Assembly (NCBI GenBank): GCA_963920705.1
Contig: OY987240.1
Span: 4,883,426-4,947,425 of the forward strand
Source of the DNA: Odiellus spinosus
Taxonomy: Eukaryota; Arthropoda; Arachnida; Opiliones; Phalangiidae
Length of the DNA stretch: 64,000 nt
Direction of reading: 5' to 3'
Shown here piece after piece: positions 762 through 36,659 of this stretch. A program made the translations under genes and the position numbers. How positions within the stretch are numbered: position 1 is the first letter of the stretch; each line of letters opens with the position of its first letter. A model generated the notes under the pieces. It searched no databases, was not told where the DNA came from, and saw only the letters and a list, made by a program, of their open reading frames with translations.

Positions 762-1131
762 ATCGTCGTCAATTTGGCAGAATCGGTCGTCCATTTGGCC
801 AGAGGAATCGGCCCAAAAACTTTCCCAGATTCTGCCAGACTCGCGACTCGAGATATGGCCTAAAACCATTTTCAGACCTACCTATCAAGATTTAGTTTTC
901 GACGAATTTTACGGTAAAAACGTTAAAATTAGGGGTAACTGAAATCATTTATGATAATATTCATTATTTTTAATATTTTAACTACAAAAATATTTGTAGA
1001 AAAAAGCATTTAAACTAAAATTGGCAAAATTTTATGTAATCGCCTCACAATAGATGGCGCCTTGATGACGAATAAAGCGTCAAAATTCAAACTGGCTTTT
1101 TCACATATACTGTATATTTCTCAAGGGGGTG

Positions 1132-2522
1132 CATAAAAAGCCATATAACTCGGCTCAAAAACGGTCAAAGTTTTTTAAATAATTCTCAATTATTCTAATT
1201 AAACTCCTCTTTCGAATGAGATAGGTCTCGTTAAAAACATGTCTTTCCTTCATTAGGAAATAAAATTATGAAAATTAGGAAAAAACTAGTTTTCTCACAT
1301 ATTATATACCATATAAATATCAGGGGGGTACATAAAAAGCCATATAACTCGGCTCAAAAACGGTCAAAGTTTTTTAAATAATTCTAAATTATTCTAATTA
1401 AACTCCTCTTTCGAATGAGATAGGTCTCGTTAAAAACATGTCTTTCCTTCATAAGGAAATAAAATTATGAAAATTAGGAAAAAACTAGTTTTCTCACATA
1501 TTATATATAATATAAATAACAGGGGGTACATAAAAAGCCATATAACTCGGCTCAAAAACGGTCAAAGTTTTTTAAATAATTCTCAATTATTCTAATTAAA
1601 CTCCTCTTTCGAATGAGATAGGTCTCGTTAAAAACATGTCTTTCCTTCATTAGGAAATAAAATTATGAAAATTAGGAAAAAACTAGTTTTCTCACATATT
1701 ATATACCATATAAATATCAGGGGGGTACATAAAAAGCCATATAACTCGGCTCAAAAACGGTCAAAGTTTTTTAAATAATTCTAAATTATTCTAATTAAAC
1801 TCCTCTTTCGAATGAGATAGGTCTCGTTAAAAACATGTCTTTCCTTCATAAGGAAATAAAATTATGAAAATTAGGAAAAAACTAGTTTTCTCACATATTA
1901 TATATAATATAAATAACAGGGGGTACATAAAAAGCCATATAACTCGGCTCAAAAACGGTCAAAGTTTTTTAAATAATTCTCAATTATTCTAATTAAACTC
2001 CTCTTTCGAATGAGATAGGTCTCGTTAAAAACATGTCTTTCCTTCATAAGGAAATAAAATTATGAAAATTAAGAAAAAACTAGTTTTCTCACATATTATA
2101 TACCATATAAATATCAGGGGGGTACATAAAAAGCCATATAACTCGGCTCAAAAACGGTCAAAGTTTTTTAAATAATTCTCAATTATTCTAATTAAACTCC
2201 TCTTTCGAATGAGATAGGTCTCGTTAAAAACATGTCTTTCCTTCATAAGGAAATAAAATTATGAAAATTAAGAAAAAACTAGTTTTCTCACATATTATAT
2301 ACCATATAAATATCAGGGGGGTACATAAAAAGCCTTATAACTCGGCTCAAAAACGGTCAAAGTTTTTTAAATAATTCTCAATTATTCTAATTAAACTCCT
2401 CTTTCGAATGAGATAGGTCTCGTTAAAAACATGTCTTTCCTTCATTAGGAAATAAAATTATGAAAATTAGGAAAAAACTAGTTTTCTCACATATTATATA
2501 CCATATAAATATCAGGGGGTTA
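1132..2522 (+). repeat. Seven tandem ~199-bp units in the left arm
   Basis: The word 'cataaaaagcc' (or a one-base variant) starts units at 1132, 1331, 1529, 1728, 1926, 2125 and 2324, a period of 198-199 bp. Each unit also carries 'aactcggctcaaaaacgg', 'cgaatgagataggtctcg' and 'aactagttttctcacat'. Two subtypes alternate: one with 'taccatataaatatcag' and one with 'tataatataaataacag', suggesting expansion by a two-unit register. The units are the internal part of the inverted arm, not a centromeric satellite. Confidence 0.9.
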
Positions 2523-3026
2523 CATATATATATATAACTTATCTCGGCTCAAAAACGGGGAGTGTGGATAGAACCCATACTGATAGATGTGATAGATGGC
2601 GCCACTGATTTCATCCAGAGGGAAGATACGGTATTTTAAATCACTATTACCATGTGGGATAGGACCTAAGTGAGGTTTGTAGTGTTTAAAACTGGGTTTA
2701 TAGTCATTCATTGGACGAATCAAGTAATAAATTATCAAACTACAATATGAAGAGAGTTCTTTAAAATAAAAGAACGAGCTCTTGCCACTCAATTCGGGAA
2801 AAATCCGGAGATAAGAAAAAAGCGCTTTTTATTTTTAGGTTTTATTGGTTAAAATGGTAGTTAGGTTATGGTTATTACGGTAGACAAATTAAATAGACAG
2901 TTAAAGAGAAAATTAAGAAAAAGACAATAAAGTTAAGAATTAGACAATTAATAAAAAGACAATTAAATTTAGAAAGAGACAACGCCTCTTTTTTCGGCAA
3001 GCTGATGAAAAAAAAGGAGTTGGTAC

Positions 3027-3208
3027 TCTCCGTTATATGGTGGATTCTGAACATTAATATGTTCTATATCCCCCATATAACCGAAAGTTATGTTTATCCT
3101 TGATTTTGTATGAAAAGGATCTTGGTACGCGATGTTGCCAGGTTTGCTGGCAGGTCCCTTTCATCAACAACAATGATACATGTGTCAGGTCAACTGACTT
3201 TTGTGCAA
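3027..3208 (-). pseudogene. Inverted, decayed copy of the AlkB 3' end
   Basis: The minus strand of this stretch matches the last part of the AlkB gene (27303-27495), including the words for the third iron-ligand region ('ttgccaggtttgctgg' on the plus strand) and the frame end ('ctctccgttatatgg'). Small deletions, for example near 3127 where about a dozen bases of the intact gene are missing, destroy the frame. It forms the innermost part of the left arm, so the arm has captured part of the cargo gene. It cannot make a working enzyme. Confidence 0.8.
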
Positions 3209-4087
3209 TAAAAATTTTGCTTTTTAAATTTATTTAACATCAAAACCGATTAGTTTCACCTCTGTTGTACAGGTTGTACAACAGTGGCTACTTACGACTC
3301 TCGCCACGGGAAGGCTGGTTTGATGTATTTGGAAAAATCCTTTGAGAGTCATTAGATAGGTTGAATAAGTAGAAGGGATTTTTAATTTGTGATACGTATA
3401 AATCCCTCTTATTCAATCTTCCTAACCATGGTATAAAGGGTTTACAGCGTTATTTTGGACGAGGACCTTTAGTGCTCTTACCAATTTCTGTTCCGGTGTA
3501 AATGTTCACCATGTAAAACTTTGCTACCCATTGCTTGAGGCAAGAATTCATATACAAATATAGAATGATCAATATATTGCTTTTAATTTATATATAGTAA
3601 AACTTTAGGCAATTCACATTTAAATTTGGATTATATAATTTATGAAGAATTAATTTTAAACTAGCATAATGTAAATTTTAGGTAAATAATTAATTACTGT
3701 TACTGCATGCAATGCATTTAGTTAGCAAGTTTTAATAGACGAAAGTCTTTCGAAATTTTGGTCTATTTTGAGGTAAACCTCTTTTTTTCTGTTTTTTTTT
3801 TTTTTTTTATGTAGGGCACAACACGAAAGTTGGATATGGACCTGGGGAGAAGTTGAAGGTAACTTAGCCATTTCTGCTGTTCCACCATAGAAAATATAGT
3901 ATGTTAAACTAAATTTTCTATGATATGATTCCACCATCAATTCTCACTGGTGAACCTATACACTTGCTGGATGTAGAAAATTCTACTCCGTTGTGCGCCA
4001 CATTCCAAAATAGGTTATTTTCCCTTTAAACTGGCATTCTTTTAATAAAGAAACAGATTCATGGAATTTGAAAATAAATGTTGCCAC
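3209..4087. other. Non-coding spacer with a small hairpin
   Basis: No credible gene. The stretch 3355-3428 forms a hairpin: 'aggttgaataagtagaaggg' faces 'ccctcttattcaatcttcct'. A long T run lies at about 3791-3808. This is the downstream side of the transposase gene, so its 3' UTR and poly(A) site should fall here, but I cannot fix them. Confidence 0.4.
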
Positions 4088-5683
4088 TTATGATGAAATT
4101 CTTCCACTCATCATTTCGTTTTTATAAATTTCTCTGCATCTACGAATGTCTTCGTCAGCCTTTTGCCTGCCCGGATATTTGATTACAAGCCATTTTGCGT
4201 ACAAACACGTTATTGGGCCGCAGTTATACCCGTTTGCCTCCGGTGGAAAATTAACGTCAGCTTGTTTAATCTTCCACTTTTGTTCAATGTTCCCAGAGGC
4301 TCGGCGTAAAGCTTTTTCGATTTTATTCGCTTCTTCTACGTGCTCCGTTCGTGAGCTACCAATCGTGAGTAAATCATAAATAGTTAGCTCAAACGATAGT
4401 ACTGAATCGACCGTCGACAATTGTTTAATAGCAAACATATAAAAGTGCTCGGCTCGTGCCATGATAATTAAAAATGTATCATATGTTTGTATTTTTTCAA
4501 ATATCATCTCTAACCACGCTAAATTTAAGTTTTGAACATCTGATCGCAATATATGTTGATATAAATCATTCGAAACGAAATCAAACGTAAAGCAGTTTCT
4601 TTTAAGCATTTCGAAATATTCTATCAACATTTTATCAACGAAAAAACGATCCGTTTTCAAAATTTCGTATTCTTTTTTTCCTAATTGAAAGTTGCCAGTT
4701 TCATGTACTTTGACTTGATCATTGGTATCAGAAGTCAAATCTATTGTATCTTTCACCTGGTGAATCTTACCACCAAGCCAAATTTTCCTCTTATCCCTAT
4801 CTGATTTTTCAAAATTATTAGTTTGATTATACCTACTACCACACCTTACATATTGTTTTCGATAGTTCTGTTGGAAAAGGTCGCGTTTCCTTTTGATTTT
4901 GTCCTTTGACTTTGGCGTTTCTTCGGGACTTAATTTTAATTTCTTAGATGGAGGTTGTTGATAAAGCCCTTTCGTTCTGTTGGACGCGTCTTCCCTAACT
5001 TCAGGTTTAGTTTTTTTGAAAATCTCGGCAATTTCTTTAAAATTATCGCGGCTATTTTGATTTGGGATGTGACTATGAGCATTAATTAACGCTCGCCTGA
5101 ACAAATTTTGGTTAAATCTATACAACTTTTTAACTGTTTCATCTAATCGCGATTTTGTATAGATTAGGCCTCGCTCCTTAACAATTCTATTGAAACCCTC
5201 AATGTGACCTTGAGTCGGTGCCTCATGATCAAGAAAGTTAACCAATCCATCTTTGAAATGGGTCCTAGGCTGGTAAGACTCTGGGACCAATTTAGAGTGA
5301 GCCTTAAAATGCCTGCTTAAATCCCCCTGTAGCAGCTTGGTCCATAAAGGTGTTGTGGGAAGGTAATTTTTTTTAAAATATGCTAAAAGTTCGGGGCTGA
5401 GATACTCATTTTTAGACTGAGATGTACTACTTGAAACGTGGGAAGCTATATCCGCCTTTGCACGCTCGATAATTCCATCGGCAAGGTCTTTGAAAAATCT
5501 ATTACCATCACCCCCTAATAAATTTTCTTCTTCGTTAAAACTAGTTCCGGTTGTCGGGCTATAAGGTGGGCACACAGTAGTACCGGTAATACTTTGGTCT
5601 AAACTACTGATTACTCCACTGATTGTCAATTTATCCGCCCAGTCAGATATATTTTGGAAGTTCGTTTCAAGCAGCTCAGTTTC
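4088..5683 (-). CDS. C-terminal part of MULE transposase (E motif) plus Ulp1/SENP-like cysteine protease
   Basis: About 531 codons after the in-frame TAG at 5684. The region with 'PTTPLWTKLL' followed by 'TQGHIEGFNRIVKERGL' fits the third catalytic (Glu) block of MULE transposases, in which a helix with E precedes a lysine-rich segment. A basic, disordered stretch follows (residues about 200-290 of the 513-residue stretch starting at 5629). The C-terminal ~190 residues resemble C48 proteases: a His in 'AEHFYMFAI', an Asp in 'LTIYDLL' and the Cys in 'ANGYNCGPITC', with the usual Gln position apparently Glu. Ulp1 domains are known in several Mutator lineages; the role there is inferred to be removal of SUMO from transposase or host factors. 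Catalysis is not proven. Confidence 0.72.
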   Translation of the reverse strand, partial: ETELLETNFQNISDWADKLTISGVISSLDQSITGTTVCPPYSPTTGTSFNEEENLLGGDGNRFFKDLADGIIERAKADIASHVSSSTSQSKNEYLSPELLAYFKKNYLPTTPLWTKLLQGDLSRHFKAHSKLVPESYQPRTHFKDGLVNFLDHEAPTQGHIEGFNRIVKERGLIYTKSRLDETVKKLYRFNQNLFRRALINAHSHIPNQNSRDNFKEIAEIFKKTKPEVREDASNRTKGLYQQPPSKKLKLSPEETPKSKDKIKRKRDLFQQNYRKQYVRCGSRYNQTNNFEKSDRDKRKIWLGGKIHQVKDTIDLTSDTNDQVKVHETGNFQLGKKEYEILKTDRFFVDKMLIEYFEMLKRNCFTFDFVSNDLYQHILRSDVQNLNLAWLEMIFEKIQTYDTFLIIMARAEHFYMFAIKQLSTVDSVLSFELTIYDLLTIGSSRTEHVEEANKIEKALRRASGNIEQKWKIKQADVNFPPEANGYNCGPITCLYAKWLVIKYPGRQKADEDIRRCREIYKNEMMSGRISS

Positions 5684-6539
5684 CTACCCTGAGAGAAGCA
5701 CGATAGCCGTAGAGTAAATTCTATGCTTTAAATCTTCTAACAATGAGCTGTTTAATAATACGCTAATCATATACATGCCTAACTTATGCTTACGAGCTGA
5801 AGTGCTATAAAACCTTTTCATGAGCCTACTAGCGTCTTTCATCATATGGCAAATTCCGCATTGAATAACTGTAATTTGTAATTCATCCCCATTAGCTCTG
5901 CCCTCTAAAATTTTCTGACAAACATCTAAGTACTGTTTTAAACTCATTCCGTTGCACACCCTCAGAGCCGCGGTTATTAGAACGAGACTTCGGTCACTAG
6001 AAATAACAGCAGGGTATGTAATACTAGGTTTCCCTGCTAGCCCTTTTTGCGCTTGAAGGAAGCTAAAAAGAAATTTGGTTAAAGTACGCGCGCTCTGGTC
6101 TTCGGTTATTAGCTCCGCTATAGGTAAAGGAATAGATTTCTTATCAATTTCGGGGCACCTCATGACTATCGGATAGTACATGAAACTTTTTGAATTTTCA
6201 GTAGCCGCTACCGATCCCGTTCCGTCCCAAAACCAAATGTCGCGCCTAGCATGATTTCTAGCGTAATTAACCGAGGCTCTGCTGTACAAATGAACGGAAC
6301 GAGGCTTACTTCCTATTTCCTGAACGTAAGAACCATATTCGGTGTGTTTTCCGAGCAAATCTAGAGACTCACATAAATTTTTAGATTCCAATTGCTTTTG
6401 GTATGCTTCATGCTTTATTTGTCGCATCGTACCTGTTCTAAGAGTAGACTCTATTAAGTTCCCCCTAGCAATGTCATTCGGTGAAGCTTTTGAATCAAGA
6501 TCCCAAAGAACATCCAAGGGTTTTATCCTTGGATTAGCC
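5684..6539 (-). CDS. MULE-type DDE transposase core (first two Asp blocks)
   Basis: About 285 codons ending at TAG 5684-5686. 'IWFWDGTGSV' fits the first Asp block of Mutator-like transposases, and 'AVISSDRSLVLITAALRV' the second Asp with its downstream helix. 'IQCGICHMMKDASRLMK' then supplies the C..H pair that follows the second Asp in this superfamily. The Glu block lies beyond the TAG in the same frame, so the enzyme core is cut in two by that single codon. The upstream limit is a frame change at the A6 run 6540-6545; codons from 6619 are also open in this frame but overlap the preceding reading. Confidence 0.75.
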
Positions 6540-8252
6540 AAAAAATGCTCGTATCTGACGGCAAGCAATACTCTGGGGATCATGTTCAGGGTTACCTTTA
6601 TTAGTAATAACCACTTCAAAATCTTTGAAAATTTGAATTTTGCATACAGCCAGGCAAGGTCTTGGCGTAGCCTTGCTCCTAGAGCAGTATAAATTGCAGA
6701 TAAAAAGTAAATCGCTAAGGATGCTATTGTCTGGTGCGTAATGATTAAGAACGTTCCACATGCAGTGCGGATTCTGTTCTTTAAGAATTATGTCTAAAGG
6801 TACTTTATAATGACTATAATCTAGAGTTTTGGCTGATAAGCGACCACTACTCATTTTAAGCCATACGTCATTTGAAATTGAAAATTTTACTTTCTGGGGA
6901 ACCTTATGGCTGATCTCTTTCTGATCGTCAATGCGTAGAACGTCTTTACAAATTTCATCAGACATTGACATAAGACTTTCCCCGGAAATTGATTCACTAT
7001 TGTTTAAGGAATCTTCCGAATCAATGCTCTCAAAATCAATTCCCGGACTCAATGGCTTTGGTTTTTCTGGGGTATTTAATACTTGGGTAGTTACGTTCTG
7101 GTTATTATGAAATGAGGTTTGAGGTTCTAAAACCAAAAAAGAGAAAGGGGCAGCATTAAATATGTCTATAGGCATATCATTTCTAGTGTCTCGATTTCCA
7201 GTTGAGTCTGAGTCAGAGTGATTAATTGAACTTTGTAAAGTGTTTGGATTGGCCAAGGTCTTTTCCTGCAATTCATAAAACGCCATAACCCAGTCTTCGT
7301 GAATTTTAGGATCATCAACAGTTTTAACCATTGAGTCGTTGTAACACACCCAAGTATTTAAAATAAGCTTAGAGAAAGCCACGTAATGGCTAGCCTTATT
7401 TACTTCCCCGTAATGCAGTACACAACTTCTTAGTTCATATTGAGATCCTAAATATTCGATCTTGGGCTCTAACAAACAAGGCTGGCGATTTCTGTTTATT
7501 TCGTCAGCGGTTCTTGGGCAGCGAAAAATCAACTTTTTGTGGGGGTGAGTTAAATTGTTAATTCGTTTCATTAGTTTATTTTCGCCGGTACAGGGACTAT
7601 CAACTCCGTTTATATCGGTACCATTTCCAAGACATGGTCGAGTTGGTTTTGGTTCAATTTCAGGCGCAGATGTGTATTCAGAAATTTTTGACTTAGAAGC
7701 GTCTAAAACCAAATACTTCACGGTTCCATCCCGAGAAAACCGCTTATTACCGCATTCTTCACAATAGTATGTGAAATCGAATAAAGAATTAAAACTATTT
7801 CCTAAAAAGGGACTAATGTAAGAAAACAATTCCTGGGGATCTTGCATGGTGTCAAATGCTAATCTATTTTTCGATATTTCATCTACGTGATGGAGGAGTG
7901 GGGCAATTTCGTGAGATTTCACGGGGTACATAGAGTTCTCCGAAAGTTTTCTTAAAAAATCGGCTAGAATATCATCAGAAATGTTGGTCATATTTAACTC
8001 AATTATTTCTAATAAAGCTTGCATAAGAGAGGAGACCCAGCAATTCAAGTGGGCATTTTCAATGCCCCTCCTCATTACTGATTTTTGGCACCGTGGACAC
8101 TTAATTTGTTTATCTCGTTTAACGTTATTAGTCGTGTTAGGGCTGTCGCGTAAACCTGCGCATCTGAAATGAAACCAATCTTGGCACCCTGTACACATAA
8201 AATAAGGCGTGTTGTCTTCGGGCTTATGACAAACACAATACAATTTAACTGG
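6534..8252 (-). CDS. PHD finger plus USP-family deubiquitinase domain and Zn-binding transposase N-terminus
   Basis: Residues 2-50 form a PHD finger: C-x-C after 'LY', 'CTGCQDWFHFRC', then 'KCPRC'. The USP domain follows: 'NAHLNCWVSSLMQALLE' fits the catalytic Cys box, 'YYCEECGNKRF' a zinc-ribbon half, and 'YGEVNKASHYVAF' with 'WVCYNDSMV' the His box. A low-complexity Ser/Asp-rich linker comes next. The last ~80 residues ('CLAVCKIQIFKDFEVVI', then a His) look like the WRKY/FLYWCH-type zinc module common at the N-terminus of MULE transposases. The frame ends at TAA 6534-6536, a few codons after an A6 run where a one-base slip leads into the DDE core. Known function of PHD is histone-tail reading and of USP ubiquitin removal; use by this transposon is inference. 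Confidence 0.78.
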   Translation of the reverse strand, partial: PVKLYCVCHKPEDNTPYFMCTGCQDWFHFRCAGLRDSPNTTNNVKRDKQIKCPRCQKSVMRRGIENAHLNCWVSSLMQALLEIIELNMTNISDDILADFLRKLSENSMYPVKSHEIAPLLHHVDEISKNRLAFDTMQDPQELFSYISPFLGNSFNSLFDFTYYCEECGNKRFSRDGTVKYLVLDASKSKISEYTSAPEIEPKPTRPCLGNGTDINGVDSPCTGENKLMKRINNLTHPHKKLIFRCPRTADEINRNRQPCLLEPKIEYLGSQYELRSCVLHYGEVNKASHYVAFSKLILNTWVCYNDSMVKTVDDPKIHEDWVMAFYELQEKTLANPNTLQSSINHSDSDSTGNRDTRNDMPIDIFNAAPFSFLVLEPQTSFHNNQNVTTQVLNTPEKPKPLSPGIDFESIDSEDSLNNSESISGESLMSMSDEICKDVLRIDDQKEISHKVPQKVKFSISNDVWLKMSSGRLSAKTLDYSHYKVPLDIILKEQNPHCMWNVLNHYAPDNSILSDLLFICNLYCSRSKATPRPCLAVCKIQIFKDFEVVITNKGNPEHDPQSIACRQIRAFFG

Positions 8253-8503
8253 TTTTTTTTGAGAGGAGGGTAAATCATTCCCTCTTCTCGTTTTGGTTTT
8301 ATTTGTCGTTCAGTCCTTCTCATATTTTTGCTAATCCCAGTCTGAGCTCTGGGGCTAAAAGGGTTTTGTATTGGAGGAGGATCTGGACGTTTCTCCTTCC
8401 TAATCGGTTGCTCCTGGGGAGGCTTAACAGTTTGCTCTTCGATGGACTCAAACGGTTGGTCCTCGAGAAGTGACATAATGTGCCCTTTGATGGACTCAAC
8501 GGA
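8253..8503 (-). CDS. Linker segment upstream of the PHD finger
   Basis: This piece (ATG possible at 8474-8476) is rich in Glu, Pro, Gln and Lys and looks disordered; I recognise no domain. It carries the motif 'LLEDQPFESIEEQ', echoing 'HLEDQ' at the end of the upstream piece. It runs into an A8 run (T8 on plus, 8253-8260), after which the PHD finger continues in a neighbouring frame. One added base in the run would make them continuous. On the other side it abuts the hairpin at 8504, beyond which the upstream piece is in the same frame. Confidence 0.5.
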
Positions 8504-8787
8504 TAGTCCTGGTCGATTTCCAAAACCGGAAGTCTAGAGAACCTCGCGAAAATTTTGGCGGGGAAAACTTTTTGTCACGTGATCGTCCGCCATCTTTTTG
8601 TAGTGTGAAAATAGCTACAGACTAACCAACGCCTCCTATACTTTATCATATAGGAAGCGTTGGACTAACAACTTGAATTTGGTTTGTGGGAAATAAAATT
8701 AGAAATAGTCTGGCAACCTGTTACTACAAAAAGATGGCGGCGCGGCTATGAGACAAGGGCCCATTTCCGGCAAATCGACCAGGACTA
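8504..8787. mobile_element. 284-bp hairpin (MITE-like) inserted in coding sequence
   Basis: The ends are exact inverted repeats, 'TAGTCCTGGTCGATTT' and its complement, followed by imperfect pairing through 'ccggaa'. Inside, 'gccatctttttgtagt' (about 8589) pairs with 'actacaaaaagatggc' (about 8724), and the centre is 'ccaacgcctcctata' against 'tataggaagcgttgg'. It lies exactly between two codons of the transposase frame and supplies a TAG as its first codon on the minus strand. A terminal TA could be a Tc1/mariner-type target duplication, but exact removal of the whole 284 bp is what restores the frame, so I leave the superfamily open. Confidence 0.7.
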
Positions 8788-9071
8788 TTGGTCCTCGAGA
8801 TGAGCGTTACCGTATTTTTCTTCCGTCAACTCGATTAGTGATTGACTTTCGGTTGAATCTGTTGGTTTTTCAGCAAGAGCATCAACCGTAAAATCAATCT
8901 GCTCATTTTCGGAAGAAAGGAACGGATTTATTTCTCCACTTGGGGCAAAAACATCGCATGCCTTTTCTTCCATCGTAAATTGGACAGACAAGATTGATTG
9001 CGCCAAATGTGTCGGATTAATCGATTGGTCCGCGTTTGGGAAAATCGATTGATCCTCTATCATTTGTATGG
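8785..9071 (-). CDS. Middle N-terminal segment of the transposase gene, cut by BEL and hairpin
   Basis: About 94 codons, acidic and Ser/Gln/Asp-rich, with repeated 'DQS' words ('IEDQSIF', 'NADQSIN'). No domain recognised; likely disordered linker. Its 5' side is the BEL/Pao target site (TATGG, 9067-9071), across which it is in frame with 15169-15570. Its 3' side is the hairpin beginning at 8787, whose first codon is TAG. It is therefore a fragment, not a small gene. Confidence 0.6.
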
Positions 9072-9441
9072 TGTTGAATTTGATTTATATATATATATAT
9101 ATAACTGTAAAATTGTTTACTTATGTATTGGTATCGTTTAGTAGAAATTTGAACTTAAAAGGGCACGTGATTATAAATAACGGTTAAGGGCGCGTAAAAA
9201 TAGAATAAAAAGGAAAAAACATATTATTATTGTTTTAGTGGTAACACGCGCCTGTCACGAAATTAATGTTTAACTCGAGCTAGTTTTTTAAATGAATTGT
9301 TAGGCTTAGCACAATAATAAAATCATTATTTTTAAACTTAAACTTTCGACTCTATAATGTTAAATTAAGACTTCAACCTTTCGACATTTCGGTATTCGAG
9401 CTAGGATATTCTCTCAAAAAAAAAGGAAATTACATTTTTTA
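9072..9441 (+). repeat. 5' LTR of the BEL/Pao element (370 bp)
   Basis: Starts TGTTGAATTTG and ends in a T6-A run. It contains a TA microsatellite near its start, and 'aataaaa' words (about 9317) that may serve as the poly(A) signal. The sequence up to 9441 matches 14802-15168; from 9442 the two diverge into the primer-binding site and host flank. Confidence 0.92.
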
Positions 9442-12400
9442 TGGTGCCGAAACCCGGGAGATTGCCTGCTATAATGCCGAGAAATAGACCAACACGTATT
9501 GAAATTGACAACATGGAAAGAAAGAGTACTCAGCGAGACGTGTTGCGAAGACTTACGACTACAATTTTACGTAATTTGGAAGAAGAATTGACGGAAGAAG
9601 AAACGAACAGGGATACTGTTGAAAACCTGCTTAATCAACTTGAAGCGAAAATGATAAAATTACGACAACTCGACTCCGACATTGAAGATCTGATACCTCT
9701 GGCAAATATTGAAGATGAGTGTACAGAAACAGAACATTTTAACGAACAGATCATAACGGTGAAACGAAGAGGACAACAGTATTTAGAACGAACCGCCGTA
9801 ATTATGCCAAACGAACGAGTCCATAATCAACAAAATGTTGACAACGACGGACGGCGCAGACCCCAGACTGGAATCAAATTGCCGAAACTTGAGATTGATA
9901 GATTCAACGGCGATCCAATTCTTTGGCATGGATTTTGGGCACATTTCGACGCAGCGGTTCATCAGAACAATAACCTTAGTGACGTTGAGAAATTCGGTTA
10001 TCTTCGATCTTATCTTGGAGGCAAGCCTGCAACTGCTATATCAGGTTTAGATATGACCGCTCAGAACTACGACAAAGCCGTATCGCTATTGAAAGCTCGA
10101 TTTGGCCGAAAACAAATAATAGTGAGTTCACATATGAATCAATTATTAAGTCTAGAACCTGTGAAAAGGTCCGCCGATTTGAGTGGACTTCGAAATCTAT
10201 ACGATAAGTGTGAGATTCAAATCCGAAGTTTAGAATCTCTTGGAATTCTAACGTCTACCTACGAAGCGATGTTGAACTCATTACTTCTGAAACTCATCCC
10301 TGCTGACTTATCTCTAGAATTTAGCAGAAAATATCCCGAAGACCGAGATTACAGCGTTGAAGAATTACTACAATTTATTCGCAATGAATTGGAAGGACGT
10401 GAACGACACGCGCTTTTAACGAACTCGGCTAAGGAGAATGAAAACAGCAAGACAAGTACACAATCTCATAATAGTTGGGATAGATCAAGAAAGTTTGGCC
10501 GTCCAGACTATCCGAAGCAAATCGCTTCGACAGCGGCTCTGAATACCTTCACTGAGACAAGTTGCTTGTTCTGCCCGAACGCCACACATACGACAAACGA
10601 ATGTAAGTCTTTAACGGTGTCTCAACGGAAAGAAATTTTAAGAAAGAAGGCTCGTTGTTTTATTTGTTTGAAATACCGACACCGTGCGAGGGATTGCAAG
10701 GTAAAAATTACATGTGCTACATGTTCCAAAAGACATCATCAAGCTGTTTGTGAATCGAAATTCCCCGACGCAACAGAAACCACAAGCCCAAAGACATTGG
10801 TAGCGACTACAACATTGGAAGAAAACGAAACCACTGGCCCTATATTACTTCAAACTGTGACGGCTCGAATTGGTAAAGATGACTCAGCCAGCGAAATTAG
10901 ATGTCTTCTCGACGGCGGCAGTCAAAGAACATTTATTGATCAAACTCTATCACAACGACTAAAACTACCCGTTATTTCCTCAGAATGTGTAAATGTATAC
11001 ACTTTCGGAAGCACAATTCCGAAGACCATCGAAACGAAAAGGGTCAGTGTTTTATTGCAAGATACCGAAACCGATAAAGAAATATACTTAGAAGCTTTGG
11101 AAACGCCCGAAGTTTGCGCGGCGATAATACAAGTACCTGGAGCTAAAATCCAAGAATCAATGATTAAGCGAGGATTACGCCTAGCCGACACTCAAAAGGG
11201 CAACGGTTTAAAAATCGAACTCTTGATTGGCACTGATTTCTATTGGAAGATTGTAACTGGACGGACAGAAAAATTATCAGAAACCTTGACTGCAGTCCAT
11301 ACACATTTTGGATGGGCTCTCCACGGAACTACAAATTACAGTTCATCGAACATCTCTGTAAATAACATTTGCGTTTTATCAATGATGTCGCCAGAAGATA
11401 TGGAAGAAGAGAAAACATCTCGTCAATTGAAAATGTTTTGGGATCTAGAATCCCTAGGAATTCTAGACATACAACAAAACGATCTTACGTGCGACCAAGT
11501 GATTCGTTCATTTGAAGAAACCATCAAATATGACCACAAGCGATACAAGGTTCGGCTCCCTTGGCGTGAAGATAGAACCCTGACGTCGGATAACTACGAC
11601 ATGGCAAAGAAAAGATTTTTATCCTTAAAGAAACGTTTCCAGAAGGATGCGTCATTCTATACACAATATGCCGCAATTATGGATGAGTATTTACAAGAAG
11701 GAATAATAGAAGTCGCGGAAGAGACGGACTTTAAAGAAAAACATTTCTATCTACCACACCACGCCGTAATCCGTGCCGGTAAAGTAAGCACCAAGGTAAG
11801 AGTCGTGTTTGATGGCTCTTCGCACGAAAACGATGCTCCTTCACTTAACGACTGTTTACACGCGGGACCAAATATGAACACCGATTTAATGAAACTTCTT
11901 GTAACCTTCCGCCTTAATGCTATCGCCTTCACGGCTGACATAGAAAAAGCATTTTTGCAAGTTGAATTGTATGAAACTGACCGTGACGCAGTTCGATTCT
12001 TATGGACCAGAGATATTAACGACGAATCAGCAAATATAACGATGAGAATGACTAGAGTCTTATTTGGATTATCACCAAGTCCTTTTCTTCTTGCTCAAAC
12101 AATAAATCATCACGCCACGAAATATGAAACTTCACATCCTGAAACCAGCAAATTATTGCGTACAAAGCTATACGTTGATGATCTAGTTGGAGGAGGAAAA
12201 GACAACGACGAAGCTTTTCGACTTTCATCCGAATCCAAGAAAATTATGTCCGAGGGTGGAATGAATCTAAGAAGATGGACCACGAACTCCAAAGTACTTC
12301 GAAATCGTTGGAAAAATGAAAATATTGAAACTGAAAATATGACAGACTCCGAACTCAAGTCTCTGAAAGTACTCGGTCTCAACTGGAACATCGAAAACGA

Positions 12401-14777: not shown

Positions 14778-14789
14778 TGACAAGGTCAT

Positions 14790-14801
14790 CGGGGGGGAGA
14801 A
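14790..14801 (+). promoter_or_regulatory. Polypurine tract of the BEL/Pao element
   Basis: A run of G with 'gagaa' immediately precedes the 3' LTR at 14802. This is the place and composition of the plus-strand primer. Confidence 0.85.
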
Positions 14802-15168
14802 TGTTGAATTTGATTTATATATATATATAACTGTAAAATTGTTTACTTATGTATTGGTATCGTTTAGTAGAAATTTGAACTTAAAAGGGCACGTGATTAT
14901 AAATAACGGTTAAGGGCGCGTAAAAATAGAATAAAAAGGAAAAAACATATTATTATTGTTTTAGTGGTAACACGCGCCTGTCACGAAATTAATGTTTAAC
15001 TCGAGCTAGTTTTTTAAATGAATTGTTAGGCTTAGCACAATAATAAAATCATTATTTTTAAACTTAAACTTTCGACTCTATAATGTTAAATTAAGACTTC
15101 AACCTTTCGACATTTCGCTATTCGAGCTAGGATATTCTCTCAAAAAAAAAAGGAAATTACATTTTTTA
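14802..15168 (+). repeat. 3' LTR of the BEL/Pao element (367 bp)
   Basis: Matches the 5' LTR apart from four fewer bases in the TA run, one extra A in the A run and one substitution. It is followed by the TATGG target duplication and the interrupted transposase frame. Confidence 0.92.
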
Positions 15169-21000: not shown

Positions 21001-21267
21001 TATTTTACGTTTTAAATTGATTTCTAATTTAAATTTGTTTAAATTCTTTAAACTAGTGGATAAGGCGAATTTAAACGATAAGGAGTCGATAAAAGTTATA
21101 AAAAATTACTTGTTGTTAGATTGCATTCTCCCTTTAAATACAACTTTCATATATCTCATGGATATTAGTTGGATCCAAATGTTAGAGATTTTTTTTCTCA
21201 GCACCTGCTAGCTTTGAACCATTGTCCTCCAAAAACGTAAAAGCTACAGATGTCCCATTAGCAAAGG

Positions 21268-21825
21268 GGTCATTCCACGTCAGTTCAGTCACTGATGTCA
21301 CCAAGAGTCAACCAATCTTAATGAAATTTTAACCACTTTAATTCGTGGTTAAATGAGCGGCAAATCTGAAATTTTAGCCCAAAATATTAAGCGGTTCCGA
21401 AACTAGAGCATTTTGTATATACCCCATGTTTTCAGGGTTTTGCCTGGGCGATATTCGTACCCCTAAGCGTTATGTCGAATATCTTTTTTTCGGATAAAGC
21501 TTATCTAATGAAATTTTCCAATTTAGAGAATTTCTATGAGCTGATTTCAAAAATGTTAACGAAAATTATCTATCTTTAACGGTTTTTCCAATATACCGAT
21601 TCTTTTGCAAAAAAATATTTAACGGGGGGTCAACTTTCGAGCGTAATACTGAAAAAGGGCCAACTTCGATTTTCAATTTCGTTGCATTTTCAGATCTCTC
21701 CCAGCCTTAGCTTTCTTTCTATCTTCGATTTGTTCATGGTATTTTGGTTTTAAGGGCAAAAAATTAAAAAAAAAAAAAAAATTGAAAAAAGCACATTTAA
21801 AAAAAAAAAATTATTCTAATATTTT
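21268..21825 (+). repeat. Left long terminal inverted repeat of the nested transposon
   Basis: Reads as the complement of 24695-25245 with only isolated differences, for example near 21400 ('aagcggttcc' against 'aatcggttcc' on the other side). It ends in an A-rich tract just before the gene's stop codon. Confidence 0.88.
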
Positions 21826-21833
21826 CCATTTTA

Positions 21834-24498
21834 TTATGAAGACAATACTTTGGCTTCAAATATTGCCTCTACATTGTCGATACATACTTTGGGCATTATT
21901 AGCTTGTAAGCCGTTTTTCGTGAAGAAGACATAGCTAAATTTTCCTTTGTTGGTGCCGGTAAAATGCACAAAATGCAATTTAAAGGAACGAAACATTCAT
22001 CTCTTTGCGGCGGCCAATGAAGTTCTCCTTTAACTTTATCGAGCTTCATGAACCTCAGAAGGAAATCATGCTGTTCTCTAATGGCTTCCACTACTAAAGC
22101 GACGTACCAAACTTTGTCATACTCAGCAGCCACGTAATCGCCCACCGAAATTGCGTCAAATGAAAGTTTATACTGGTTTTGTTTAGCTTCCTCTAGAGTG
22201 GCGACTTTAACAGTTGTACCAAAAGGATCAGACGATAATCTGTACATGTTAAGTTCACATTGCGATGTTGGGATAAATTTATGATGGCTTCGAGTGCCAG
22301 CAACTGTGCGAGCCTTGGAGAGACGTTCTTCAAGAGTTGTTACATGAGATTTAACAACATCTTTCGAAATGTACAAAAATTTAATTCCAAAAATGTTTTT
22401 GTCTGACCATTCGTAGAATTGCAAAGGTGTTAAAATCTGATTTTCTTCCGTACTTTGCAAAGAAGCCCGAGAAACCAATCGCTTAGCAGTTCCGCCAATG
22501 CCATCGCAAGGACTCTTGCCATGTGATGTTGCGAAAAAGTTCCACTCTGCAGTTAAACCGAAGTCCATTTTGTGGGAGCATAAATTGAATAGATTTTTGC
22601 AGTTTTTATATTGCGAGGCTGCCCCGTCGCTAAAATAATGCAGATGTGTGACGCGTGGAAAAATTTCTTTGATGTATGAAATCACCGATTTAATGAAGCA
22701 ATGGACGGTTTCGGCACTGTGCTCCATTTCATCGCTGACAACGCAACAACTATGGCATATCATTTCATCTTCATTCTTGGAATAGATAACAAAAGGGTGA
22801 AGTGTACATTGGGTGTTCTCCCAATGAAAACCTTGTACAGCATCCTGCACAATGAAGGAATAGTTTTCTGCGAAGTCGAGAAGTACTATGGCGTGGTTCA
22901 GTACAAGATTGTCTTTGAGTTCTCTTAAATACGCCGCTTGAGCTTTTGCTACAAAATGGTGTTGTAGGGCTTTGCCCATCTTATTGGTGAGCTTTGAAAC
23001 GAACTCAGAAACAGTTTCACGAATGGCAAGCAGCTTTGTTTGACCCTCTATGCGAGCCCACTGTTTATAAGAAACGTTATCTTCTTGGTCGATTTCCATT
23101 TGATCAAATAAGGAGTTCAAATAATTTTTAAATTTATTTTCGGAAGGACAATACTCGCATCGTTGGATCATGCATGTTCGATTATCTGTAGAGCATACAA
23201 ATTCAAGCATGAGTGATTTATAATCAGTTTTTAATGGGAGGGCCAATGACATCAGTTTCAAGTTTTGGTGAATCTCGCACACACAGACATTGTGCATGCT
23301 ATTGGATGTTACAGGTATGCACCATTTAGGTCGTAAAGAACAAAATTTGGAGAAGCCGACTTTTACATTAGGATTTTCTTCCTTAAACTGCAAATAAACT
23401 TCTTTGATATTTGAGAGTATAAGTCGCTTTTGTTTATGTGATTTTTCACCATTTATGCTGACGGATACATATTCCTTTTTCCTGGGCACATCCTTGTTAC
23501 TTCATCGTTTTGGAAAAAAGTGATTACGGTATCCACAGTTTCTTGTGGCAAAGTTTTTCCTCTGGTTTTTTCGATTTCTGGCAGGATACTCACTTCCTTC
23601 CTTAGCTTCTTCGACAGCAAGGCCAAATATTTTGAAACACCAAATTCCTCACAAGTCCGTTTAATTGTCCATGATTTTGGAAGTATTGTTAAAAGTTTGC
23701 ACTTTTCTTGTTTTGATGAATTTGCCACATTTTTCTTCAAATCAGAAATTAACTCCTCTTCGTAGCTATCTTGACACAACACCTCTGTTGGAATATGTAA
23801 TGCTTTAATTACTTTGGTTTTTAACACATCCACTGTCTCGGATATCTTTCTCTTTGCGTAAGTAGCACGTTGATGAGTGTTAATGGCGTGCAGATTCATT
23901 GGTGATGATCCAAGATCCTTTAAACTCTTATTAAGAAAATATAATTCATGTTCTTCCAATAAAGGTTCCTGTGATGATGAGGGAGTTTCTTGTTGAGGTG
24001 TACATGATAAAGATGACTCGTTACTTGTAGTATTACCAGCCTCAATTTGTCGGGCTTGCAATCTCTTCAGACAGTTTCGACATATCTTTTGACCTGGAGC
24101 TAAGAGCTTTTCACAAAAAGGTTGAAACTGGTGGGCTTGTTCAATGGAGAGAAAAATTACATGACCTGCACGAAAATTTGTAATTAGCTAGGTAAAGGAA
24201 ATAATTTTTATATCTAGAACTCACTATTGACGGCTCTTTTGTGTATGTCAAATGGATCGCAGCATTTTCGTTGATAAAAGGCATATTTGGTGATTAGAAT
24301 CGCGAAGTGGTGGTCACATATATTGAACAAAGTTCCATCGGCAATAGGACCAGCTCGAGCTATTATTAAGGACTGCGTTTCATCCCCAAAGATACTTAGT
24401 TTTGTTATACCCTTGGTTTTACAATGGGTTTCTTTATGGCAATCTTCTTGGCGGAATTCACCAACGGAACAGTTCTCTAACACGTTTTCTTCTTCCAT
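21834..24498 (-). CDS. Spliced DDE-type transposase of the nested transposon (one slip)
   Basis: Exon 1 starts at ATG 24496-24498 and ends at 24225; a 59-bp GT-AG intron (24224-24166, donor GTGAGT, acceptor TGCAG) joins it in phase to exon 2, which runs to TAA-type stop at 21834. About 868 codons. A Cys/His-rich N-terminus ('FNICDHHFAI', 'GQKICRNC') could bind DNA. The core shows 'LLDFAENYSF', 'HYFSDGAASQYKN' and 'SHGKSPCDGIGG', three acidic blocks spaced as in a DDE/DDD enzyme. At the T5 run 23476-23480 the frame slips: the pieces 24165-23453 and 23489-21834 overlap in neighbouring frames, and one extra base there would join them. Proteins of this kind are common as unnamed repeats in arthropod genomes. 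The superfamily remains uncertain. Confidence 0.75.
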
Positions 24499-24694
24499 AC
24501 TAATAACGTTTTACCATGAATTTATTCATGTAACCCATGAATTTACCACCCTACTATAACCCTATGCTGCACTGTAGAGGTAGATTGAGTTAGGCTTAAA
24601 ATTAAAATTAGGCTATCTGTATCTTAAAAACTTCAAATATAAATCGCGAGACACTGCGCGAGACACGGTATCTATATTTTCTAAAATGGGAAAT

Positions 24695-25245
24695 ATTAGA
24701 ATTAATTTTTTTTTTTAAATGTGTTTTTTTCAAATTTTTTTTTTTTTAATTTTTTTCCCTTAAAACCAAAATACCACGAACAAATCGAAGATAGAAAGAA
24801 AGCTAAGGCTGGGAGAGATCTGAAAATGCAACGAAATTGAAAATCGAAGTTGGCCCTTTTTCAGTATTACGCTCGAAAGTTGACCCCCCGTTAAATATTT
24901 TTTTGCAAAAGAATCGGTATATTGGAAAAACCGTTAAAGATAGATAATTTTCGTTAACATTTTTGAAATCAGCTCATAGAAATGCTCTAAATTGGAAAAT
25001 TTCATTAGATAAGCTTTATCCGAAAAAAAGATATTCGACATAACGCTTAGGGGTACGAATATCGCCCAGGCAAAACCCTGAAAACATGGGGTATATACAA
25101 AATGCTCTAGTTTCGGAACCGATTAATATTTTGGGCTAAAATTTCAGATTTGCCGCTCATTTAACCACGAATTAAAGTGGTTAAAATTTCATTAAGATTG
25201 GTTGACTCTTGGTGACATCAGTGACTGAACTGACGTGGAATGACC
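24695..25245 (-). repeat. Right long terminal inverted repeat of the nested transposon
   Basis: Mirror of the left repeat; ends GGAATGACC at 25245, followed by the CAAAGG duplication. It lies directly upstream of the transposase gene and should carry its promoter. Confidence 0.88.
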
Positions 25246-25359
25246 CAAAGGCAAGGGCAATCTTCAGTATAATACATGCAAAAGGGGCTCTATAATAGTT
25301 TCCAGGGGAACAACTATTTTCCTAAGCCCCCAGAGATGAGACCTTGACACCCCACACCC

Positions 25360-25396
25360 TATATAAAGTGGAAAATCTGTTTGGTATTGGTCACTT
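25360..25396 (+). promoter_or_regulatory. TATA box and initiator of the AlkB gene
   Basis: TATATAAAG at 25360-25368 is followed by TCACTT at 25391-25396, which resembles the arthropod initiator; its A is 33 bp after the first T of the TATA box, the standard distance. The predicted first exon then runs to a donor at 25467. Confidence 0.55.
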
Positions 25397-25464
25397 ATTG
25401 ATCTGATCGTATCCAGTGTTTCCAACTTCTTCAATCCTTTTAGAACTTCGTTAAATTTTCTAAA

Positions 25465-27496
25465 ATGTAAGTAGTTTTGGTTCCGTATGCTACATATATA
25501 ATTATTTCTTGTGTCATTAATTATATTTCATTATTTTAGGAATATTCAAATAGGCAATATGTGGGTGACGGCCTACATTGGTGAAATGAACCAAACTTCC
25601 ACGCTCGTTTGGAAAACAACAAGATTTGATGACTTGCATCATTTTCCGGCCGGGCCAAATCCTAACCACCTTGGATAGACGTTTCTCCCAGTAAAAATAG
25701 AGGGTGGTACAACCGCGACGGTATCGTTTTGTGTAAACAATTCAAACGTGGAGCCAACAACCATAAGTAATAACCAAAATTTTCCTTTTAATAGAAATAA
25801 TTTTGAGAAATTATAATAAGTTTGCATATAAAATGGATTTTAACATATTGCCAATTATAATTTATTTTAAATTTTAATAATTTAACCAGCACGGGAGCTA
25901 TGGGCTCAAATAAAACCCACCACCGTCAACCATGAAGTACCAACAGGAGAGCCCCCTGAAGCTCTAGTTGAAGAGGTCACCATCTTCAAGGCGCCTGCAC
26001 AGGGCACTAATGAGTCTATGCGTGGTCGGGCGACCAATTTGAAAAGAAATCGGGGGAGCAGCGGCAGAGGTCGGGGGACGAGCGCCAGAGGGAGAAGCAT
26101 AGGGAGCAAGTATTCAAGAGGTCGGGGGAGCTCATCAAGCACCTCCATATCGAGAGGTATCGAGGCTGCCACCCCTGGGCAGGCCCATTTACCTGGTAAA
26201 TATTGTAACTTATTTAAATTTATAGGGATAGTGATTTAATTTGGCTAGTTTATATTCAATTGCAGAGCGAAAGTTATTTAGACAATTTTCATTTTAGTTT
26301 TGATTTTGGCTTAGTGAAAATTACTCATTTACTTAATTTAGACTTGCCTTAAAGGGATAATTAAGACGAGGAACATAGGATTTTTAATCGATTATAATAG
26401 TCTTTGAAGTTTAAATTAGTTGAGATAAAAGCATTAAATGAATTCGCCTTAATGGTTTTGCTTGCAGGGAGCGGGTTGTTACAGTAATGTACTATTACAA
26501 TGATAGGAAGCACTTTAAATAATAAACACGACTTGAATTGAATTATTGGTCTCTAGTTTTTTATTCACGCTAGATAGGTAAGTGTAATAAATTAGCTAAT
26601 GATGCAATCGTCAATCTTAAACAAGGATTTTAGTTCTTGCTCCAGGGTCGAAAGTCTTTATATATATAACATACCATGTTAAAGTGAGAACGAAGTCAGA
26701 CAAAAGAGGTTTAAATTGGTTCCTTATATCGTTAACATAGGTCTTTTTTATAATACGATTAGGAACGTTAAAATATTAAAAGGTATCTCGTTTATTTTTA
26801 TATTCTATTCTGTCGTACTTCTGTCTTTATAATATAATTTGCTAATTACACTGCTTATATTTATATCTTTTAGGATCTCACGTAATCACTGTTGGTCTCC
26901 AAAGATTAAAGGGAGGGGCTCAAGTCGAGCTATACAAAGATTTCGTATCGCACATAAACGTAGAAGACCTTGTGATGGAATTTCAAGATAAATTTGAAAA
27001 AAATGATAATGTTCCTCGCAAGGTCTTCTACGTTTGTGACAACCCCAAATACCGGAAATTCTCTTATGGGAAAACTACGAATAAATCGTTGTTCGAGTGG
27101 CCGAGGTCACTTTTGATGTTAAAAAAACTGGTGGAGAAAAAGACAAATTTTTTATTCAATGCAGCCGTTTGCAATTATTACGTGGATGGCAACGACTCTG
27201 TTGGTTGGCACGCTGATGATGAAAAAGGAGTTCATGCAGTGATTGCTTCCTTGTCTTTCGGGGCAACGAGGAATTTTGAAATGAAACCAAATGGGTGCCA
27301 AGTTGCACAAAAGTCAGTTGACCTGACACATGGATCCTTGCTTTTGATGAAAGGGACCTGCCAGCAAACCTGGCAACATCGCGTACCAAGAGCGGCAGAT
27401 CCCTTTCACACAAAATCAAGGATAAACATAACTTTCCGTTATATGGGGGATATTGATCAAATTAATGTTCAGAATATACCATATAACGGAGAGTAA
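25465..27496 (+). CDS. AlkB-family 2OG-Fe(II) dioxygenase with RGG-rich N-terminus (ALKBH2/3-like), four coding exons, one in-frame TAG
   Basis: Exons: to 25466, 25540-25766, 25890-26195 and 26874-27496; introns are GT-AG (25467-25539, 25767-25889, 26196-26873) and all phases agree. The start codon is itself split: AT before the first intron, G after. TAG at 25676-25678 (codon 47) interrupts the frame, which is open on both sides to a total of about 385 codons. Exon 3 is rich in Arg-Gly ('RGRATNLKRNRGSSGRGRG'), like RGG nucleic-acid binding tails. Exon 4 carries the enzyme: iron ligands in 'GWHADD' (about 291 and 293) and 'WQHRVPR' (His about 347), and the 2OG-binding Arg pair in 'RINITFR'. 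The family removes alkyl groups from DNA or RNA bases. Restart at the ATG at 26018 would give a shorter protein with RGG and catalytic parts. It sits next to the right arm of the giant transposon, so it is probably cargo. Confidence 0.8.
25767..25889 (+). other. Intron 2 of the AlkB gene
   Basis: Donor GTAATA, acceptor 'tttaaccag'. Splicing it joins the N-terminal piece and the RGG-rich piece in the same frame, which supports the exon model. A 73-bp intron 1 (25467-25539) and a 678-bp intron 3 (26196-26873, acceptor 'tatcttttag') behave likewise. Confidence 0.65.
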
Positions 27497-28207: not shown

Positions 28208-28244
<37 letters not shown>

Positions 28245-28250
28245 TTTATA
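27998..28250 (+). repeat. TATATC/TA microsatellite
   Basis: About 250 bp of 'tatatatc' and 'ta' units. It lies where the left arm has only a short TA run (2522-2537). The open frame that crosses it is an artefact of the repeat. Confidence 0.95.
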
Positions 28251-28289
28251 CATTTTGTCAAAAAAACTAGTTTTTTCTTAATTTTTTAT

Positions 28290-29300
28290 GTACCCCCCTG
28301 ATATTTATATAGTATATAATATGTCAAAAAAAACTAGTTTTTTCTTAATTTTCATAATTTTATTTCCTTATGAAGGAAAGACATGTTTTTAACGAGACCT
28401 ATCTCATCCGAAAGAGGAGTTTAATTAGAATAATTGAGAATTATTTAAAAAACTTTGACCGTTTTTGAGCCGAGTTATATGGCTTTTTATGTACCCCCCC
28501 CCCCTGATATTTATATAGTATATAATATGTCAAAAAAAACTAGTTTTTTCTTAATTTTCATAATTTTATTTCCTTATGAAGAAAAGACATGTTTTTAACG
28601 AGACCTATCTCATTCGAAAGAGGAGTTTAATTAGAATAATTGAGAATTATTTAAAAAACTTTGACCGTTTTTGAGCCGAGTTATATGGCTTTTTATGTAC
28701 CCCCCTGATATTTATATGGTATATAATATGTGAGAAAACTAGTTTTTTCTTAATTTTCATAATTTTATTTCCTTTTGAAGGAAAGACATGTTTTTAACGA
28801 GACCTATCTCATTCGAAAGAGGAGTTTAATTAGAATAATTGAGAATTATTTAAAAAACTTTGACCGTTTTTGAGCCGAGTTATATGGCTTTTTATGTACC
28901 CCCTGTTATTTATATTATATACAATATGTGAGAAAACTAGTTTTTTCCTAATTTTCATAATTTTATTTCCTTATGAAGGAAAGACATGTTTTTAACGAGA
29001 CCTATCTCATTCGAAAGAGGAGTTTAATTAGAATAATTTAGAATTATTTAAAAAACTTTGACCGTTTTTGAGCCGAGTTATATGGCTTTTTATGTACCCC
29101 CCTGATATTTATATGGTATATAATATGTGAGAAAACTAGTTTTTTCCTAATTTTCATAATTTTATTTCCTAATGAAGGAAAGACATGTTTTTAACGAGAC
29201 CTATCTCATTCGAAAGAGGAGTTTAATTAGAATAATTGAGAATTATTTAAAAAACTTTGACCGTTTTTGAGCCGAGTTATATGGCTTTTTATGCACCCCC
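28290..29300 (-). repeat. Five tandem ~199-bp units in the right arm
   Basis: 'gagccgagttatatggctttttatg' type junctions end units at about 28490, 28690, 28890, 29095 and 29295. They are the same family as the seven units in the left arm, and some junctions show variable runs of C (4 to 10). Confidence 0.9.
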
Positions 29301-29959
29301 TTGAGAAATATACAGTATATGTGAAAAAGCCAGTTTGAATTTTGACGCTTTATTCGTCATCAAGGCGCCGTCTATTGTGAGGCGATTACGTAAAATTTTG
29401 CCAATTTTAGTTTAAATGCTTTTTTCTACAAATATTTTTGTAGTTAAAATATTAAAAATAATGAATATTATCATAAATGATTTCAGTTACCCCTAATTTT
29501 AACGTTTTTACCGTAAAATTCGTCGAAAACTAAATCTTGATAGGTAGGTCTGAAAATGGTTTTAGGCAATATCTCGAGTCGCGAGTCTGGCAGAATCTGG
29601 GAAATTTTTTGGGCTGATTCCTCTGGCCAAATGGACGACCGATTCTGCCAAATTGACGACGATGATTGACGGTGGTCAGATTGACGGTGGTCTCAATAGT
29701 ATAGTAGAAGTTTCAGAAACAGAAATTATTTTCAGAAACTAAATCCCTTGTGTTATGTGCAGTAGAATATATCGTGCCATTCTAGTGAATTTCATTCCAT
29801 TTCATGAAGGACAAGTCTGGCCCCAAAAAGTATATTTGATTTTTATTGACGGTATATAAAGGACTAGACCCGATTCTAACCAGCCATCTTAAGTTCAAGG
29901 TAAGTTTGGATATTGAGAAAACCTTAGACTCAATGTTTAAACTCATAAATTCATCGCGA

Positions 29960-36650: not shown

Positions 36651-36659
36651 AAAAATAAG

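Follow-up and report, generated by a model that had tools for sequence, protein, structure and literature searches.

Among described transposons, the closest counterparts of the element analyzed here are the Rehavkus elements of the Mutator superfamily, which as of 2019 were described in Repbase only, according to the account in PMC6446971. The element is located in a 64,000-nucleotide stretch of the Odiellus spinosus genome (443 Mb, 286 contigs), C18:4883426-4947425, to be referred to as the window; positions without a prefix are those of the window. Rehavkus-1_TC and Rehavkus-1_HR resemble it in their 9-bp target-site duplications (TSDs), the PHD finger of the transposase and the minisatellite sequence, in the part of PMC6446971 that treats them, and Rehavkus-1_TC also has tandem units (there of 164 bp) in its inverted termini, in the passage of PMC10218199 devoted to it. 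There are differences as well. The length given for Rehavkus in that passage of PMC10218199 is 9.5 kb, compared to about 18.5 kb here, and the descriptive values in PMC6446971 (terminal inverted repeats, TIRs, of 26-400 bp, and one open reading frame, ORF) contrast with arms of 1.38 kb at high identity and two genes here. The 9-bp TSD (in the family), the PHD finger and the tandem or minisatellite termini are all found in O. spinosus, and a Rehavkus-type element of the Mutator superfamily is the best fit to the duplications, the finger and the tandem-unit arms. It is called Rehavkus-type, and is not filed as a member, because it departs from the values for TIR length and a single ORF. The words ubiquitin, Ulp1 and AlkB are absent from the main text of PMC6446971. 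None of the papers searched that mention Rehavkus also mentions ubiquitin. A preliminary description of this locus had known of no description of its combination of modules; the type itself is known. USP plus AlkB was not found in such an element in the literature searched, mostly titles and abstracts, with Repbase, where Rehavkus is described and either might be recorded, outside the search.

The Foldback (FB/NOF) element of Drosophila presumably shares tandem-subrepeat arms and a Mutator-type transposase with this element; it is likened here by description, and it is not known to carry PHD, USP or AlkB. Transposons carry ubiquitin- and SUMO-directed proteases, the roles of which are unknown. 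Each module of the present transposase is found elsewhere with some transposase: Ulp1 and PHD (and OTU besides) with those of Ginger1 and Mutator elements, and peptidase C19 with one of T. vaginalis. Ginger1-9_HM has both Ulp1 and PHD, and a role of ubiquitin and SUMO in transposition has been proposed in the Ginger paper; however, the core transposase is a different one in Ginger1 and in the T. vaginalis protein, and neither PHD, USP and Ulp1 together nor AlkB is seen in the available text of that paper (PMC2836005). The Vandal and Kaonashi elements of plants are also Mutator-like elements (MULEs), and their anti-silencing gene can hold a captured Ulp1 domain, but they are non-TIR elements, and AlkB does not appear in the main text of PMC13317346. 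ALKBH3, ALKBH2 and the AlkB proteins of Bacteroidota have their fold and active site in common with the AlkB described below, which differs in being transposon-borne and probably placed behind an RG-rich exon.

We interpret the locus, with a probability of about 0.77, as a large Rehavkus-type Mutator transposon whose inverted arms, built of satellite units, enclose two genes, one for a PHD-USP-DDE(-Ulp1-like) transposase and the other for an ALKBH2/3-type AlkB protein. Direct support comes from the mapped ends, from the family's target duplications of 9 bp, from finding both genes together at three loci, and from the fusion of PHD, USP and DDE; for AlkB it comes from the catalytic residues and a ratio of nonsynonymous to synonymous divergence (dN/dS) of 0.17.

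The inverted repeats (762-2132 and 29663-28283) show 97.8% identity over 1381 columns. Each arm consists of a terminal segment of about 330 bp, beginning with ATCGTCGTCAATTTGGCAG in the left arm, followed by 199-bp tandem units, with 7.1 copies on the left (1121-2526) and 5.2 on the right (28283-29320). The Foldback-like character seen in the preliminary description is confirmed, and the arm length of about 2.4 kb given there also holds, once weaker inner homology reaching to 3208 and 27303 is counted. This inner homology comprises 2727-2982 against 28005-27707 (75%) and 3024-3208 against 27495-27303 (89.6%), the latter being what is left, in inverted orientation and decayed, of a copy of the final 64 codons of AlkB inside the left arm. 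The transposase gene and the oppositely oriented AlkB gene are located between the arms (Table 1). The span of about 29 kb between the ends is as first described, but some 10.4 kb of it are later insertions, three in number and all absent from the second copy described below, which leaves an element proper of about 18.5 kb.

Table 1. Positions of the parts of the element and of the insertions nested in it
Feature	Position	Strand	Basis and remarks
Left inverted arm	762..2526	+	Self-comparison, tandem repeats, 9-bp duplications at 9/14 other copies
Inner left arm with decayed inverted AlkB 3' end (3024-3208) and its 3' flank	2727..3208	+	
Ulp1-like C-terminal part of transposase frame	4091..4777	-	H 4445-4447, D 4373-4375, C 4220-4222; LupA E 0.088
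DDE region	4778..6547	-	Motifs D 6224-6226, D 5993-5995, C 5858-5860/H 5846-5848, E 5198-5200
USP (UCH, peptidase C19)	7299..8069	-	PF00443 E 1e-12; C 8040-8042, H 7386-7388, N/D 7335-7340
PHD finger	8088..8237	-	PF00628 E 2e-4; PDB matches pps, BPTF, PHF2, DIDO1
N-terminal extension of transposase frame	8261..8504	-	Out of frame with PHD at A-rich tract, all three copies
MITE-like (miniature inverted-repeat transposable element) insert of 284 bp, foreign to element	8505..8788 (about)	.	Absent from copy 2 and C9 copy
Further N-terminal frame	8789..9071	-	Split from 15170-15600 by BEL/Pao insertion; continuous in copy 2
BEL/Pao long terminal repeat (LTR) retrotransposon, nested, foreign to element	9072..15169	+	LTRs 9072-9442, 14802-15169; Peptidase_A17, DUF1759, DUF5641
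N-terminal transposase frame, 144 codons	15170..15600	-	100% amino acid identity in copy 2; 85% over residues 13-143 in C9 copy
DNA transposon, nested, foreign to element	21267..25246	.	TIRs of 567 bp, 98% identical; lacking in copy 2 and C9 copy
Probable RG-rich coding exon of AlkB	25889..26195	+	Predicted donor G|GTAAAT; open frame in window and copy 2
Main AlkB exon	26874..27496	+	PF13532; ALKBH3; H112, D114, H168, R182, R188 present
Right inverted arm	28283..29663	-	Self-comparison, tandem repeats, arm search

The host genome was searched once with the arm end (762-1160), and 40 of 89 candidates were scored. At least 41 near-complete arm ends were listed, which form at least 27 loci, 14 of them pairs and 13 single ends. 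Sixteen of the 27 were read end to end, namely the 14 pairs, including the window copy and copy 2, and the single ends L104 and L108; the other 11 were read in part. Without the window copy and copy 2, the remaining 12 pairs, together with L104 and L108, for which partners were found, make up 14 other paired copies. Their 9-bp flanks are identical in nine cases, agree at 8/9 positions in two and show no agreement in three, while the best agreement among 210 mismatched left/right flank pairs, the control, is 6/9. The family makes 9-bp target duplications, defined here together with the arm comparison that the preliminary description had proposed. The window coordinates are the true element ends, because 9 of the 14 other pairs carry identical duplications.

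These 14 copies are 1.7-8.6 kb long, and seven protein pieces compared with them by tblastn (E 1e-4) match none. Four have 21-bp minisatellite cores, recognized by repeated frames in L094 and L096 and by Tandem Repeats Finder (TRF) in L095 and L100; the five copies examined by TRF comprise two with such cores and three made mostly of 200-bp units. Arms that move without the genes, which the preliminary description had named as a sign against a gene-carrying element, are thus the case in 14/14 other pairs, yet these copies have the look of common non-autonomous derivatives that consist of tandem repeats. Minisatellites of 21, 32 or 39 bp fill L094-L096, L100, L105-L107, L114, L115 and L118, several of them read in part, with up to 218 units within the part read. 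The family seems to seed satellites.

Both genes are present at three loci at least, a lower bound drawn from the 27 arm loci: the window copy itself, copy 2 (C18:4782007-4797445), which lies 87 kb from it in inverted orientation, and a copy on another contig (C9 copy, right end at C9:1368147). The search for further copies that the preliminary description had proposed thus yields at least two with the gene pair. Copy 2 carries AlkB (97.6% at the amino acid level), PHD-USP (96%), DDE, and 304 of the 531 residues of the frame referred to as ORF D. It lacks the equivalent of window positions 1407-4772 as well as the BEL/Pao, DNA transposon and MITE-like insertions. The C9 copy has AlkB, the core, PHD, USP, DDE and the right arm, with most of the first 302 ORF D residues and 94.5% identity over 4945-8504. 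In addition, a relic on C11 contains the left arm, an AlkB 3' fragment and the stretch just past the transposase gene, at about 87%. It matches 3024-3426 at 87.5%, and its AlkB fragment is an open frame covering residues 143-206. As this older relic also holds the AlkB fragment and the left arm, the association of AlkB with the arms goes back some time. Copy 2 ends 12 bases from the end of a different element (C18:4781994-4782007, L102).

PHD and USP are encoded in a single 591-codon open frame of the window. The PHD finger scores 21.8 bits with PF00628, under Pfam's 24-bit cut-off, and matches PHD chains in the PDB down to E 5e-8, many of which we take to be H3K4me3 readers. The USP shows the UCH profile and the catalytic Cys, His and Asp boxes, and its best PDB chains are those of Ubp8 (E 4e-5, His-box region only). 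The motifs of the DDE region, D, D, C..H and E, were read by eye. Their D-D spacing is 76, and spacings of 60-76 are found in 11 of 12 arthropod MULE families, in the part of PMC13359780 that gives them. A model of DDE and ORF D predicted from the single sequence is unusable (predicted local distance difference test, pLDDT, 35.6), and a search of viral contigs for close relatives of four protein pieces confirmed none.

The PHD-USP frame of copy 2 runs on into DDE, and the PHD-USP-DDE fusion is therefore real. The C9 frame supports it over its last part only, where residues 483-588, with one stop, continue into DDE; from there DDE continues into ORF D, with a sense codon TAC where the window and copy 2 have TAG (5684-5686). 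A short intron as the explanation of the TAG at 5684 is rejected on account of this sense codon in C9. Copy 2 has the N-terminal pieces split by the BEL/Pao insertion joined in one frame; at the joint that follows, the frame continues unbroken in the C9 copy. The transposase frame of the window is broken at several points, and most interruptions differ among the copies. The break just before PHD, at an A-rich tract, may be due to decay, slippage or an intron.

The best Pfam match of the Ulp1-like part is a weak one (E 0.088) to LupA, which presumably belongs to the Ulp1-like clan. The motif of Ulp1/C48 proteases is H-D-Q-C; H, D and C are present here, and E replaces Q. The homology of copy 2 and that of the C9 copy both end within a few bases of each other near window 4773-4778, just before this part. 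The fusion of DDE with PHD, USP and Ulp1 in the preliminary description holds for a PHD-USP-DDE polypeptide, seen in the joints of copy 2 and the C9 copy; its Ulp1 part is seen in one copy, by weak similarity. For the four domains, of which profile alignments were suggested there, Pfam gives a match for USP, PHD below the cut-off, no match for DDE, and LupA for the Ulp1-like part.

The AlkB protein has the 2OG-FeII_Oxy_2 fold and the HxD...H and RxNxTxR motifs. It matches PF13532 at E 1.3e-29 and ALKBH3 at E 2.4e-25, and its structure model (pLDDT 78) has a fold match to ALKBH3 at E 1.8e-16. The catalytic residues are intact in the window and copy 2. The RG-rich frame would join the main exon in phase, and its four length changes relative to the C9 copy are all multiples of three; AlkB is probably spliced to this exon, as predicted from the sequence. 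Upstream of the gene a TATA-like motif can be read, and AlkB also has its own splice-like signals. With copies on C18 and C9, the view that a separate AlkB gene belongs to the element is borne out. The best bacterial match scores 135 bits, compared to 92.5 for human ALKBH3, with PDB chains as the animal sequences compared, and the relatives show kinship with Bacteroidota sequences. Of 305 candidate stretches from bacteria, 243 were confirmed and the best 80 were kept; 14 of these 80 were aligned with the window, chosen from an initial 20 of which L039 and L074 were excluded for an in-frame stop and L021, L035, L054 and L061 left out.

Between the window and C9 copies, the AlkB genes differ at 48 bases over 203 codons, 30 of them at third positions (P 3e-5). 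This corresponds to a dN of 0.044 and a dS of 0.256 (dN/dS 0.16 for residues 56-206 alone); Fisher's test, with counts estimated from these two values, gives P 1.5e-8. Because it is catalytically complete in two copies and has a dN/dS of 0.17, AlkB shows the signs of cargo kept in working order rather than of a trapped host gene. For the other pieces the dN/dS is 0.15 in PHD (5 differences only), 0.36 in DDE, 0.38 in ORF D and 0.67 in N15. The third-position excess is significant for PHD, USP, DDE and ORF D pooled (P 0.003); singly, it is weak for ORF D (P 0.036) and non-significant for DDE (P 0.065) and PHD (P 0.21). The window and copy 2 have too few differences for dN/dS.

ALKBH3 and ALKBH2 are repair enzymes, with N1-methyladenine and N3-methylcytosine as substrates. 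Judging by these relatives, repair is the likeliest role of AlkB, and the protein may remove N1-methyl-A and N3-methyl-C from single-stranded intermediates of transposition or repair, or from element RNA, to the benefit of the element. The DDE core would cut and insert the element and mobilize the gene-less, repeat-filled copies, PHD may steer it to H3K4-methylated, active chromatin, and USP (and perhaps Ulp1) could strip histones, repair factors or the transposase of ubiquitin or SUMO. A more far-reaching view, held at somewhat less than even odds, is that this lineage took up an AlkB demethylase as a second gene under selection, while PHD, USP and perhaps Ulp1 were fused to its transposase, and so reads chromatin, edits ubiquitin and SUMO, and cleans or demethylates its own nucleic acid as it transposes. 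If true, a selected AlkB on a cut-and-paste element would link transposition to the repair of alkylation damage or to the demethylation of nucleic acids, and would provide a testable system. Rehavkus would gain a two-gene form alongside repeat-filled derivatives in one genome.

Several observations weigh against the reading as a two-gene Rehavkus-type transposon. The DDE core has no match to Pfam or to any DDE or MULE profile, its Mutator features being the TSD of the family and the motifs read by eye, and the Ulp1-like part has no match in copy 2 or the C9 copy, so that it is found in 1/3 copies. No gene-bearing copy has a demonstrable TSD: the flanks of the window copy agree at 2 of 9 bases, one end of copy 2 is missing its outermost bases, and the left end of the C9 copy is cut off, with no arm in the 15 kb further left. 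The transposase frame is intact in none of the three, with one stop within USP and a base lost further on in DDE of copy 2, and several frame changes in PHD-USP of the C9 copy, where AlkB has also lost 5 bases. USP has a dN/dS of 0.44 (window-C9) or 0.30 (copy 2-C9) with a non-significant third-position excess (P 0.19), and the linker (1.6) and N9 (4.0) show no constraint. Moreover, AlkB exceeds PHD, USP, DDE, ORF D and N15 (dS 0.045-0.10) in dS by a factor of 2.5 to 5, and noncoding DNA just upstream of AlkB differs by 15%, compared to 6.3-6.4% in two core stretches. As both are higher at AlkB, the AlkB end and the transposase end differ in history, probably by exchange between element lineages. 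The left flank of the window copy matches the flank of copy 2, inverted, over 299 bp at 99%, and because of this common flank the two are possibly one insertion duplicated, or related by rearrangement. Together with their distance of 87 kb, their inverted orientation, the lack of a demonstrable TSD and the broken frames, this suits the alternative that all gene-bearing copies are one insertion spread by segmental duplication, with genes no longer acting in transposition. However, the C9 copy is on another contig, its transposase is about 5.5% diverged and without the common nonsense codon, and its right flank differs, which makes such an origin unlikely. That AlkB and USP are genes of the host that happen to be enclosed by a pair of unrelated inverted repeats, a case raised in the preliminary description as one that would undo it, has almost no probability left, and nothing was found in its favor: the same genes, in the same order, are found at C18 and C9, the inverted arm itself includes the AlkB 3' copy, and it is refuted because the gene pair recurs beside the right arm.

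The place of AlkB within the transposon allows two further explanations. Its own TATA-like and splice-like signals, and the lack of an AlkB match in 14/14 other paired copies, would suit a mere passenger, captured Pack-MULE style from the host or as a gene of bacterial type and of no benefit to the element, and a tendency of Mutator elements to take up fragments of host genes is stated in a part of PMC6446971. But a dN/dS of 0.17 after the common capture junction, catalytic residues intact in the window and copy 2, and the presence of AlkB in 3/3 loci found with the transposase gene make this quite improbable. The main alternative to repair is that AlkB counters silencing by removing methyl marks from element DNA or RNA. 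An RG-rich tail suits RNA binding, which favors this idea, as does the comparison with the VANC anti-silencing proteins of plant Vandal MULEs, some with a captured Ulp1 domain (in the part of PMC13317346 concerned with them). The closest solved relatives of AlkB are ALKBH3 and ALKBH2, however, and we consider an anti-silencing function unlikely.

The BEL/Pao element nested in the transposase gene has LTRs of 98.4% identity and a single open frame of 1790 codons. The two ORFs of the nested DNA transposon have no Pfam match at 0.01 and chance-level NCBIfam matches only. A six-frame Pfam search at E 0.1 of 15170-21266 and 25247-26877 gave no match, and nothing was found with Rfam at gathering thresholds. 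Elsewhere in the window, a Copia element (52264-56673) has a frame whose residues 867-907 match the methyl-CpG binding domain (PF01429, E 1.5e-6). An inverted pair of 99% identity (36635-37192 and 49410-49967), 12 kb apart, flanks the gene for mitochondrial ribosomal protein mS39 (46644-48632), and a 97% palindrome with AACCT-type repeats is located at 30728-31154.

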